Source: Candidatus Eisenbacteria bacterium
GTDB lineage: Bacteria > Eisenbacteria > RBG-16-71-46
Assembly: GCA_013140805.1 (NCBI GenBank)
Contig: JABFRW010000001.1
Coordinates: forward strand, 1 to 35,813
DNA: 35,813 nucleotides
Direction of reading: 5' to 3'
Every line of letters starts with the position of its first letter. Within the stretch, counting starts at the first letter, position 1. Below the pieces are notes generated by a model. The model made no database searches. It was not told where the DNA came from and saw only the letters and a program-made list of their open reading frames with translations. This document shows positions 4,588 to 8,367 of this stretch, in pieces. The translations under genes were made by a program, and so were the position numbers.

Positions 4588-5231
4588 CTCCCGGATACTT
4601 TCTCGCGATCGCCGGCAACATCGGCGCCGGAAAGACCGAGCTGACCACGCGACTGAGTCAGGAACTCGGGTGGCTCGCCTACTACGAGCCGGTGATCCAG
4701 AACCCGTACCTCGATCCGTTCTACGCCGACATGCCGCGCTGGAGCTTTCACCTGCAGATCTACTTCCTCAGCGAACGCTACAAGGCGCAGGTCGAGATCT
4801 CGAAGAGCTCGCTGCCGTTCATCCAGGATCGCACCATCTACGAGGATGCGGAGATCTTCGCGCGCACGCTGCGTGAACAGGGCTCGATGACCGAGGTCGA
4901 CTATCAGAACTACAGCGCCCTGTTCGAGGTGCTGACGAGCCACCTGCGGCCGCCCGACCTGATCGTGTACCTGCAGGCGAGGCCGGCGACGCTCATGGAG
5001 CGGATCGCCAGGCGCGGCCGCCCGAGCGAGCAGGGCATCGGCATCGACTACATCCAGCGTCTCAATCTCGCCTATGACGGCTGGATGGAGCGCGCACGCG
5101 TGAACCACGAGGTGCTCACGATCGACACCGATGCGGTGGCGTTGCAAGGCGACTCGCCCGCATTTCGCTCGCTGGTCGACGACCTCAAGCAGCGCTATCC
5201 GCGCCAGGCCGAGCTGGACCTGCCGGGTTAG
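4584..5231 (+). CDS. Deoxynucleoside kinase (dNK/dGK-dAK family)
   Basis: 215 aa from ATG 4584, preceded by GGAGGGAC. The P-loop GNIGAGKT is at residues 11-18, followed by the substrate-site glutamate E36 (YEPV), Q58 in a FHLQIYFL helix, and the D82-R83 pair (FIQDRTIYEDAEIF) that replaces the ERS/DRS motif. A lid segment rich in arginine (RIARRGRPSEQ) comes next. These are the hallmarks of the deoxyadenosine/deoxyguanosine kinase family, which phosphorylates salvaged deoxynucleosides in the cytoplasm with ATP. Which base it prefers cannot be told from sequence. It follows the two-component pair through the tiny coupled frame. Its TAG stop interlocks with the TAA of convergent ileS (shared bases 5229-5230), so no space for a terminator remains between the two genes. 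Confidence 0.88.
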   Translation: MTPGYFLAIAGNIGAGKTELTTRLSQELGWLAYYEPVIQNPYLDPFYADMPRWSFHLQIYFLSERYKAQVEISKSSLPFIQDRTIYEDAEIFARTLREQGSMTEVDYQNYSALFEVLTSHLRPPDLIVYLQARPATLMERIARRGRPSEQGIGIDYIQRLNLAYDGWMERARVNHEVLTIDTDAVALQGDSPAFRSLVDDLKQRYPRQAELDLPG

Positions 5232-8023
5232 CTGCGCGCGGCGAGGACCCGGTTGCAGCGACTGCACAGCGCCGCCTGACCGGGCGTGTCATCGACGTCC
5301 GGACGATGGGTCCAGCAGCGTTCACAGCGCGGCAGCGAGGTCTTTTGCACTTCGACTCTCACGTCGGTCGCGTCGAGGTCCTCGATCAGTTCCGCACGCG
5401 CCACGAGCAGGAAGCCGAGCAATTCGCCCCCGAGTTGCGCGAGTCGTGCGATCGTCGGTGGTGCGGCGGTGAGCGTGACCTCGGCTTCTTGAGTGGTCGC
5501 GAGCGTCTTGGCGGCACGCAGCGGCTCGATCGCGGCGTTCACGATTCCGCGGATCTCGAGCAGAAACGCCCAGTCGTCACCCGCGGGTCCTTCGTGGACG
5601 GCCTCGCGTGTGTGTTCGGGCCACTCACTCAGATGGACGCTTTCGCATGTCGCGACCAGCCCCGGGTGGCTCTGCCAGACTTCCTCGGCGGTGAACACCA
5701 GGATCGGTGAGGCCGCGACCGCGAGGTCATGCAATGCGCGCCACAGCACGGTCTGCGCCGAACGGCGGGCGGGATCGTCGGCCGCCAGCGTGTAGAGCCG
5801 ATTCTTCGCAACGTCCAGGAAGACCGCCGAGAGATCGACGGTGCAGACGTCCAGCAGCGCGTCGGTCACGCGATGGAACAGGAAGTTCCGATAGTCCTCG
5901 CGCATCCGCTCGAGTCGCGCCGCGAGGTGACTCGCGAACGCTCGATCGACCGGAGTCAGGCGCGCGAAAGGCACGGCATGCTCGGGACGGAAGTCGTCGA
6001 GATTCCCGAGCAGGAAGCGGAACGTGTTGCGCACCTTCCGATAGGCGTCGGCGACGCGCTGCAGGATCTCGTCGCCGACTCGCACGTCGTTGCGCCAGTC
6101 GGTCGCCAGCGCCCACCACCTCACGATGTCGGCACCGTAGCGCACGATGATCGAGTCGGGCGCGATCACGTTGCCGAGCGACTTGTGCATCGCACGGCCG
6201 TCACGATCCAGCACCCAGCCATGGGTGAGCACGTCGGTGTAGGGCGCATGACCCGTGAGTCCGACGCCGACCATCAGCGACGAGTTGAACCAGCCGCGGT
6301 GCTGGTCGGGACCCTCGAAGTAGACGATGCGACCGGCCTCGCGCACAGCGCGCTGCCACGCTTCGCCGAATTCCGGATGCGTGACCTGAATGGCTCGGTG
6401 CGTCGAGCCGGAGTCGAACCACACGTCGAGGATGTCCGTTTCCTTGCGGAACGGCCCGGCCGCCTCGCATTGCGGGCAACGGAAACCGCTCGGCAGGAAC
6501 GCCTCGACCGGCTGCTCGAACCACGCATCCGAGCCGTGCTCGCGCGTCAGCTCGGCGGCGCGCTTCATGACGCGAGGCTCGAGGAGGGCGGCGTTGCAGC
6601 TCTCGCAATAGAGGGCGGGAATGCCGACCCCCCACGAGCGCTGGCGTGACAGGCACCAGTCGGGGCGCAGCCGCACGGCATCGCGAATGCGATTGCGCGC
6701 GCCCTCGGGCTCCCATTTCACGCGCTCGACCTCCGTCATCGCGCGTTCGCGGTGATCGTGATGGTCGATCATCATGAACCACTGACGGGTGGCGCGGAAG
6801 ATCACCGGCCGTCGGCAGCGCCAGCAATGCGGGTAGCTGTGCGTGAGTGTTCCGCTCGCCAGCAGCCGCCCGCGCTCGCCGAGCCATGTGATCACGTCGG
6901 CATCGACGTCGAGCACGCTGCGACCTACGAAGGGCTCTGCGCCGAGCTCGAAGCGGCCCGCATCGTCGACCGGATTCACGACTCCGAGTCCCTCGCGCAA
7001 TCCGACCGCGAAGTCTTCTTTGCCGTGCCCGGGTGCGGTGTGAACGAGCCCGGTGCCGTCCTGCATGCTGACGAACGGAGTGCCGTCGACGACTCGCGAC
7101 GCATTGCCCCACGGCGCCTCGAACAGCACCCCGAGCAGCTCACGCCCCGCGACACGCCGCACCTCGGGCAGCGCGCTGCCGAGCACCTTCTCGACCGCCT
7201 CGAGGCGCGGTGCCGCGATCAGCAGGTGGCGGTCTCCGTGGCGCACCACGACGTACGGGGCCTCGGGATCCACCATGAGGCCCAGATTCGCAGGCAGCGT
7301 CCAGGGCGTGGTGGTCCAGGCGACGGCCTCGACCGCGGGCGAGAGTCCGGCGAAGACGCCCTGGGCGTCTTCACGAAGCGGGAAGGCGACGTGAATCGAC
7401 GGCGACGGAATGTCCTGATACTCGATCTCGGCTTCGGCCAGCGCCGTGCGATCGGTCGGGCACCAGTGGATCGAGCGCATGCCGCGTTGCACGAAGCCGG
7501 CTTCGGCGAGACCCGCGAAGGTGCGGACGATTTCGGCTTCGAACGCATGCTCCATCGTCAGGTAGGGTTTGCTCCATTCCCCCCAGATTCCGAGGCGTTC
7601 GAATTCCGCACGCTGGACGGCGACCCACTCGGCCGCGTACTCGCGGCAGCGGCGGCGCAACTCGATTCGGTCGGGCTGGAGCTTCTTCTCTCGGAACTCC
7701 TTCGTGACCTGAATTTCGATCGGCATGCCGTGATTGTCCCAGCCCGGCACGTACGGAGAGTCGAATCCGAGCAGCGAACTGCTGCGAACCACGGCGTCCT
7801 TCCACACCTTGTTCGAAGCGGTACCCATGTGGATGTGAGCGTTCGAGTACGGCGGACCATCGTGCAGGATCAGGAGCGGACGCCCGCGCTTCTGCTCACG
7901 CAGTCGCTGATACTCGCCGCGCTCGGCCCACCAGCGCAGCCGCTCCGGCTCACGGCCCGGCAGGTCCGCCTTCATCGGGAAGTCGGTTCGCGGCAGGTTC
8001 AGCGTGTCGCGGTAGCCAGCCAT
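5228..8023 (-). CDS. ileS: Isoleucyl-tRNA synthetase
   Basis: 931 aa class I synthetase charging tRNA-Ile. The start is ATG 8023 with GGGAGG 7 bases upstream; the frame stays open further upstream, but only through the T-box leader. The HIGH-type ATP motif is HIHMGTA (63-69). The CP1 editing domain carries WTTTPWTLPAN (236-246) and HTAPGHGKEDF (328-338, with D337). The KMSKS-type loop is AMHKS (611-615). Cysteine pairs at 483/486 and 516/519, and the C-terminal zinc finger C900-x2-C903 with C920-x2-C923, fit bacterial IleRS. Length and domain order are normal. Transcription is predicted to be controlled by the upstream T-box responding to uncharged tRNA-Ile. The 3' end overlaps the convergent deoxynucleoside kinase stop. 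Confidence 0.97.
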   Translation of the reverse strand: MAGYRDTLNLPRTDFPMKADLPGREPERLRWWAERGEYQRLREQKRGRPLLILHDGPPYSNAHIHMGTASNKVWKDAVVRSSSLLGFDSPYVPGWDNHGMPIEIQVTKEFREKKLQPDRIELRRRCREYAAEWVAVQRAEFERLGIWGEWSKPYLTMEHAFEAEIVRTFAGLAEAGFVQRGMRSIHWCPTDRTALAEAEIEYQDIPSPSIHVAFPLREDAQGVFAGLSPAVEAVAWTTTPWTLPANLGLMVDPEAPYVVVRHGDRHLLIAAPRLEAVEKVLGSALPEVRRVAGRELLGVLFEAPWGNASRVVDGTPFVSMQDGTGLVHTAPGHGKEDFAVGLREGLGVVNPVDDAGRFELGAEPFVGRSVLDVDADVITWLGERGRLLASGTLTHSYPHCWRCRRPVIFRATRQWFMMIDHHDHRERAMTEVERVKWEPEGARNRIRDAVRLRPDWCLSRQRSWGVGIPALYCESCNAALLEPRVMKRAAELTREHGSDAWFEQPVEAFLPSGFRCPQCEAAGPFRKETDILDVWFDSGSTHRAIQVTHPEFGEAWQRAVREAGRIVYFEGPDQHRGWFNSSLMVGVGLTGHAPYTDVLTHGWVLDRDGRAMHKSLGNVIAPDSIIVRYGADIVRWWALATDWRNDVRVGDEILQRVADAYRKVRNTFRFLLGNLDDFRPEHAVPFARLTPVDRAFASHLAARLERMREDYRNFLFHRVTDALLDVCTVDLSAVFLDVAKNRLYTLAADDPARRSAQTVLWRALHDLAVAASPILVFTAEEVWQSHPGLVATCESVHLSEWPEHTREAVHEGPAGDDWAFLLEIRGIVNAAIEPLRAAKTLATTQEAEVTLTAAPPTIARLAQLGGELLGFLLVARAELIEDLDATDVRVEVQKTSLPRCERCWTHRPDVDDTPGQAALCSRCNRVLAARS

Positions 8024-8038
8024 GCATGCCTCCCAAAG

Positions 8039-8074
8039 AAAAACGCCCCCACGGTCGAGAACGACCGTCGGGGC
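8039..8074 (-). terminator. Intrinsic terminator of the ileS T-box
   Basis: The minus strand reads GCCCCGACGGTCG-TTCT-CGACCGTGGGGGC, a 13-position stem with a single G-G mismatch and a four-base loop, followed by GTTTTT. It begins shortly after the T-box core, so it is mutually exclusive with the antiterminator, as in tRNA-sensing attenuators. Confidence 0.88.
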
Positions 8075-8317
8075 GAATCGAGTTCGCGGTACCACCCGAC
8101 TTCACGGCGTCCTCTCGGAGCACCGCCTCATGGGCGAGCCGTGTGGCCCCGCCCTGCCCGCTCTCGGGGGGCACCCGTCCGCACTTGCTCACCCGGTTTC
8201 GAGGCGTGAGTTCGGTGCGGCGGCTCCGGGGTGATCTTCGCGGTGTCCGGTGGCGCCGGGCTCTCACCGCCCCCGGCTCGCTGTGGCGCGGACACCGTTA
8301 CTGTCCCCATCTCAGCC
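8039..8317 (-). promoter_or_regulatory. T-box riboswitch (Ile, AUC specifier) controlling ileS
   Basis: Reading the minus strand, the T-box core GGGTGGTACCGCG lies at 8097-8085, immediately before a terminator and the ileS ribosome site. Stem I can be folded: GGCT (8317-8314) with AGCC (8225-8222), GGGG with CCCC, and an upper helix GGTGTCC/GGACACC capped by a GAGCC...GGTGAGAGCC distal region like the conserved AG-bulge/GNUG loop. Between the lower and upper helices, AGTA on one side faces GAA on the other (the loop-E pattern). The codon ATC (8235-8233, followed by A) sits in the specifier position, matching isoleucine. The layout is the classic transcriptional type: uncharged tRNA-Ile would stabilise the antiterminator and allow ileS transcription. 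Confidence 0.9.
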
Positions 8318-8338: not shown

Positions 8339-8367
8339 ACGCTGTCACGGCGCGCCGCTCGCGTCAA
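8339..8367 (-). promoter_or_regulatory. Candidate ileS promoter
   Basis: The minus strand has TTGACG (8367-8362), a 17-base spacer and CAGCGT (8344-8339), placing the start about 8332, some 15 bases before stem I of the T-box. The -35 box overlaps the stop codon of the upstream M23 peptidase gene. The -10 is weak against TATAAT but resembles the TAGCGT boxes at 12503 and 28918. Confidence 0.5.

Follow-up and report, generated by a model that had tools for sequence, protein, structure and literature searches.

A class I T-box riboswitch predicted to control ileS in a family of Candidatus Eisenbacteria, with a likely lateral origin shared with the gene

Surveys of T-box riboswitches name the Firmicutes, Actinobacteria, Chloroflexi, Deinococcus-Thermus, and a few delta-proteobacteria (PMC2494555; PMC3766115). 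In the window studied here, which is the whole 35,813-nt stretch of contig JABFRW010000001.1, the original prediction placed a complete, isoleucine-specific T-box upstream of ileS in a non-Firmicute, FCB-like genome; the host family does indeed belong to Candidatus Eisenbacteria. Is this leader a T-box of a known kind, is it maintained in the relatives of the host, and how did it reach this phylum? The analysis points to a true T-box that is conserved and of the known transcriptional type, ordinary in its principle: its interest lies in its distribution, its joint history with ileS, and its changed discriminator. A literature search gave no earlier report joining T-boxes with Eisenbacteria, although TBDB, which lay outside the search, may hold such sequences unnamed in papers; the same search gave no report joining Armatimonadetes with riboswitches.

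On the minus strand, the leader covers about 8367 to 8023, where ileS starts, and the T-box (8322-8039, minus strand; 72% G+C) lies 42 bases upstream of ileS. The covariance-model search of the minus strand matched RF00230 at 8322-8066 over the full model (model positions 1-219) with 56.7 bits (E = 8.3e-12 in a 501-base stretch and 1.5e-11 in the whole genome), and this single match at E <= 10 is the only T-box in the host genome. The score is below the Rfam gathering score of 93, which is a curation threshold and not a structural definition, and the Rfam scan at the default cut-off accordingly listed no match. This cut-off is strict: only two of the five control genomes matching RF00230 (including Thermus, Deinobacterium, and Corynebacterium) pass it. 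The range first proposed, 8039-8317, was essentially correct. Elements from stem I (8317) to the terminator (8044) were located, and the core, stem I with its AGTA/GAA loop E, the AUC specifier, and the terminator with its T-tract were all found in the window. The parts of the leader and the gene are as follows.

8339..8367, minus strand: probable promoter, with -35 TTGACG at 8367-8362, a 17-nt spacer, and a -10-like CAGCGT at 8344-8339 (inferred from the sequence)
8222..8317, minus strand: stem I, domain recognizing the tRNA anticodon and elbow (RF00230 alignment; conserved in 13 family genomes)
8299..8302, minus strand: 5' part of loop E, AGTA (Rfam alignment), with its partner GAA at 8239-8237
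8278..8282, minus strand: AG bulge of stem I, AGCGA, invariant in 13 genomes
8262..8268, minus strand: distal loop of stem I, GGUGAGA, forming with the AG bulge the tRNA elbow-binding module (13-genome alignment)
8233..8235, minus strand: specifier codon AUC (Ile), in the context GAA-G-AUC-A-C (sequence)
8179..8220, minus strand: stem II with an S-turn-like GAA/AGCAA (94% of cells paired, 13 genomes)
8156..8177, minus strand: stem IIA/B pseudoknot, CGG/CCG and GCCC/GGGC (IIA 95% and IIB 83% of cells paired, 13 genomes)
8101..8155, minus strand: linker hairpin and stem III, preceding the antiterminator (single-sequence folds)
8097-8085, minus strand: core GGGTGGTACCGCG (sequence)
8068..8099, minus strand: antiterminator, helices A1 and A2 enclosing the 7-nt bulge UGGUACC (fold of -14.2 kcal/mol in the window)
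8091..8094, minus strand: UGGU, expected partner of the tRNA-Ile 3' end ACCA (sequence; predicted pairing)
8044..8075, minus strand: intrinsic terminator hairpin, the 5' arm of which is the 3' arm of the antiterminator (fold of -29.4 kcal/mol)
8035..8043, minus strand: terminator U-tract TTTTTCTTT (sequence)
8029..8034, minus strand: Shine-Dalgarno sequence GGGAGG of ileS, outside the terminator hairpin (sequence)
5228..8023, minus strand: ileS, type 1 IleRS of 931 aa, predicted to be under T-box control (TIGR00392, 778 bits, over the cut-off; without DUF5915)

The start of ileS is the ATG at 8023; the listed ORF start, GTG at 8095, falls inside the T-box. A strict sigma-70 consensus scan of the leader did not list the TTGACG/CAGCGT promoter; in the family relatives, the corresponding place again has a TTGAC with a CANNNT-like hexamer 17-18 nt further on. 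By analogy with the known T-box family, on which the proposed tRNA binding, aminoacylation sensing, and switching are modelled, RNA polymerase would use the promoter at about 8367-8339 to transcribe the leader, stem I would show AUC to the anticodon GAU of tRNA-Ile, and the AG bulge and distal loop would hold the tRNA elbow. The 3' ACCA of an uncharged tRNA would pair with UGGU (8094-8091), stabilizing the antiterminator and allowing transcription into ileS; with a charged tRNA, the 3' half of the antiterminator would refold into the terminator (8075-8044), and transcription would end before ileS. The two hairpins are mutually exclusive because they share the strand 8075-8068, and the terminator scan gave one site where 0.1 was expected. 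Since the Shine-Dalgarno sequence is free of the hairpin, the switch should act on transcription.

The T-box was found in 14 genomes of the host family and in no other family of the phylum. RF00230 matches 11 of the 20 family genomes and none of the 27 other genomes of the phylum; a stem I model built for the family detected a single clear copy per genome in 13 family members, located at ileS every time, and gave no convincing match in the rest of the phylum. The fourteenth genome (G022) keeps the T-box core at a contig end. In the structure over the 13 sequences, 94% of the cells are paired, versus 38-53% when it is slid, and 13 pairs show changes on both sides, versus 6.6 in shuffles, a number reached by none of 500 shuffles. 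Stem I alone shows seven such pairs in these genomes, again reached by none of 500 shuffles. The GTA and GAA of loop E are invariant, as is the GGUG of the distal loop, the whole of which is nearly so (13 genomes). The specifier is AUC in 12 of the 13 family genomes with that part assembled, the exception being AAC in G028. All ten antiterminator pairs are present in at least 12 of the 13 genomes (four with changes on both sides), 98-100% of the cells of helices A1 and A2 are paired, and the bulge of the window, UGGUACC, fits UGGNACC. The original prediction was borne out in its T-box, its Ile specificity, and its non-Firmicute, FCB-like host. The full-model RF00230 match, albeit below the gathering score, the AUC specifier, and the TIGR00392 gene agree with a complete Ile T-box before ileS, and stem I and the specifier are conserved among relatives, with covariation in the former. 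Chance is excluded as an explanation, since 14 genomes have the terminator, the core, and stem I all together in one place ahead of ileS.

Compared with the class I Ile T-boxes of Firmicutes ileS (RF00230), the Eisenbacteria element has the same long stem I with loop E, AG bulge, and distal loop, the same AUC specifier, stem II with S-turn, IIA/B pseudoknot, stem III, and UGGN bulge, and the same competition between antiterminator and intrinsic terminator before the same gene. It differs in its 72% G+C, in the replacement of CCGUUA, in a G-C instead of a purine-U pair at the base of A2, and in being the sole T-box of its genome, outside the phyla named in the surveys (PMC2494555; PMC3766115). 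The class II translational ileS T-boxes of Mycobacterium and Nocardia share the Ile specificity, stem II and pseudoknot, and discriminator core, but their stem I is short and their action translational, whereas the Eisenbacteria element has a long stem I and a terminator: none of the class II features (truncated stem I, sequestered Shine-Dalgarno sequence, lack of a terminator) is present in the window. The ileS T-boxes of Deinococcus and Dehalococcoides (PMC2494555) are likewise lone or rare cases outside the Firmicutes, in different phyla, the likeness being drawn from their published description. In view of the sequence elements, the covarying helices, the mutually exclusive hairpins, the specifier fitting the gene, and the family-wide conservation, it is very probable that the ileS leader element is a class I (transcriptional) T-box of known kind controlling ileS, which we infer to have a lateral origin together with the gene.

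The charge-sensing part shows changes common to the lineage. Helix A2 commonly, though not universally, has a purine-U pair at its base, the usual steric sieve for the amino acid; all 13 aligned family members have a G-C pair at this place, while purine-U occurs in 28 of the 30 other ileS T-boxes of the comparison set and in all four ileS T-boxes of Armatimonadota. As a G-U wobble, this pair plays a role in rejecting the amino acid (PMC7583486). The fact that 13 of 150 listed Bacillota cores, counted by hand, have a C at this position means that G-C does not exclude an element from the T-box class. The canonical F-box CCGUUA, carried by 25 of the 30 other ileS T-boxes of the set and by all four of Armatimonadota, is absent in all 14 family members (CCGAGA in the window), and, judging by eye from the alignment, the purine string before stem III seems to be changed in most members (AYGAG instead of RRRxG). 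Since the F-box is absent and the base of A2 is G-C, the discrimination of charging might differ. That the whole lineage has reworked its charge-sensing part, with a changed steric sieve or a response more to total tRNA than to charging, is nevertheless a tentative idea to which we give quite a low probability.

The usual discriminator base of tRNA-Ile is A73, which the fourth bulge base of the window (UGGU) would fit; the cognate tRNA-Ile was not recovered in these draft assemblies. Anticodon-loop patterns gave no convincing tRNA-Ile in the host and family assemblies, and a BLAST search with bacterial tRNA-Ile recovered tRNA-Val from most genomes; its one tRNA-Ile match, which is truncated, lies in the rRNA operon of G028. 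The gene therefore probably sits in the rRNA operon spacer, a region that these draft assemblies mostly miss. Several leaders depart from the common pattern. The bulge is UGGC in L025 (G023), L023 (G024), L019 (G026), and L021 (G030), a sequence that would fail to pair with A73, the usual discriminator of tRNA-Ile. In L021 (G030) and L024 (G031), the bulge is UGGNAAC instead of UGGNACC, stem II has an insert, and a long terminator hairpin lacks a T-tract; these leaders may switch in another way. The leader of G028 (L027) has AAC at the specifier position, and the tRNA-Ile in its rRNA operon spacer (L186, 1501-1561) looks truncated, which might reflect decay, an assembly error, or a real change.

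In three family members (G025, G035, and G037), the body of the T-box is missing before ileS and a hairpin resembling the old terminator has been kept, lying between the promoter and ileS (L014, L156, and L026, respectively). In G025, part of stem I also survives on its 5' side, as the remnant GACGGGGACGAGCAGG. In the IleRS tree, G037 pairs with the genome of the window and G025 with G034; since both partners have the T-box, at least two of the losses were independent.

These losses, together with the odd specifier in G028 and the off-consensus F-box and A2 base pair, are what might be expected if the T-box were a decaying relic that had lost its regulatory role. However, compensatory changes preserve the helices, most genomes share the same bulge and stem I loops, and terminators followed by T-tracts are still found. 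Such a pattern points to selection and not to decay, so that a relic seems very improbable. It is also very improbable that the element acts on translation by hiding the ribosome-binding site, as the ileS T-boxes of actinobacteria do (PMC7583486). The hairpins of G030 and G031, which have no T-tract, would be compatible with such a mode of action, but the window shows a strong hairpin followed by TTTTTCTTT, its GGGAGG lies outside this hairpin, and its stem I is long, not short.

As regards the origin of the element, the original prediction had left a choice between old retention and a joint lateral acquisition with ileS. The C-terminal domain differs between type 1 and type 2 IleRS (PMC10485003). 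DUF5915, the C-terminal domain of type 2, is present in both of the other Eisenbacteria IleRS scanned and absent from those of the family, which are 64-74% identical to each other and 29-35% identical to most other Eisenbacteria IleRS (42% in one exception). In the IleRS tree (59 rows), the family is sister to four IleRS of Armatimonadota (support 93/97), which group together (100/99) and each have a T-box in front. The proposed comparison of the IleRS phylogeny with the host phylum thus places the family enzymes beside T-box-bearing Armatimonadota; by identity they are distant from those of most other Eisenbacteria. No T-box core was found before ileS in the 16 other rows of the Armatimonadota branch, a contrast which is partly due to choice, since three of the four sister genes entered the tree on account of the T-box seen beside ileS in their genomes; the grouping of the four genes with the Eisenbacteria family is independent of that choice. 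Grouping the family IleRS with Firmicutes was rejected (p-AU 0.003), while keeping Armatimonadota together without the family (p-AU 0.30) and joining the family to WOR-3/TA06 (p-AU 0.38) were not. The sequence of the T-box was also considered as a marker of descent and set aside: the stem I scores overlap (70, 58, and 56 in Armatimonadota, up to 64 in Firmicutes), so the T-box sequence cannot decide on the donor.

The ileS T-boxes of Armatimonadota (L044, L153, L154, and L155) resemble the Eisenbacteria one in preceding a type 1 ileS. L153-L155 have a full stem I, an AUC specifier, and a stem I base nearly the same as that of Eisenbacteria (GACGGGGACGAGTAG and GAAGATCACCCC); a terminator with a T-tract is present in each of the four, L044 being cut by the contig end. 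They differ in keeping CCGUUA and purine-U and in helix A1, GAG/CUC instead of GGG/CCC. As to the enzyme, the HMGT and AMHKS motifs, first noted as departing from the E. coli type, are not special to this gene: among 124 type 1 IleRS (the window ileS, 8023-5228, and loci L013-L152), the fourth HIGH position is Thr in 40 and Gln in 2, and AMHKS occurs in 45. Changes in HIGH and KMSKS, being common in the type 1 IleRS of that branch, were discarded as a sign of an odd enzyme. In a published survey of 158 type 1 enzymes, HXGH was found in all (PMC10485003).

Vertical inheritance of the T-box from an ancient common ancestor, with loss elsewhere in the phylum, would agree with the scattering of T-boxes over many phyla, with the 86 of 121 Armatimonadota genomes that have a match, and with the losses in three family members; an ancestral origin was also left open in published work (PMC3766115). 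Yet the T-box is missing from all 27 genomes outside the family, whose IleRS mostly differs as well, and one replacement of ileS together with its leader explains both facts, which makes vertical inheritance unlikely. Lateral arrival of the T-box and ileS together is the likely course of events, favoured by the restriction of the T-box to a single family, the type 1 IleRS, and the tree; of the two origins originally proposed, retention is the less favoured. Both would have reached the ancestor of the Eisenbacteria family in a single unit and taken the place of a type 2 IleRS. Our best guess for the donor, not a proven one, is an Armatimonadota-like source.

Two further loci may be mentioned. 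L030 (G006), from another Eisenbacteria family, has its own type 1 IleRS, which stood near Acidobacteria in the first tree and has no T-box; it appears to be a second, separate replacement. L061 (JAGUVT010000121.1), from a metagenome-assembled genome named Deltaproteobacteria, carries a T-box ileS falling inside Bacillota in the IleRS tree, with seven T-boxes in the genome: this is probably a misnamed Bacillota bin.

T-boxes are common in Armatimonadota (G048 and G095-G211), where 86 of the 121 genomes have at least one match at E <= 0.001, with up to five each. The present findings add Candidatus Eisenbacteria, and the frequent occurrence in Armatimonadota, to the phyla with T-boxes. The case is well sampled, and shows what seems to be the joint entry into a phylum of an essential gene and the RNA switch preceding it, at the expense of another enzyme, followed by several deletions of the switch that left the terminator behind. 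If the charge-sensing part has indeed been reworked, the G-C pair, the AYGAG string, and the lost F-box would mark altered sensing in a lineage whose closest T-box-bearing relatives keep the canonical forms. The G-C pair found throughout the lineage is in any case a natural variant of the amino acid sieve.
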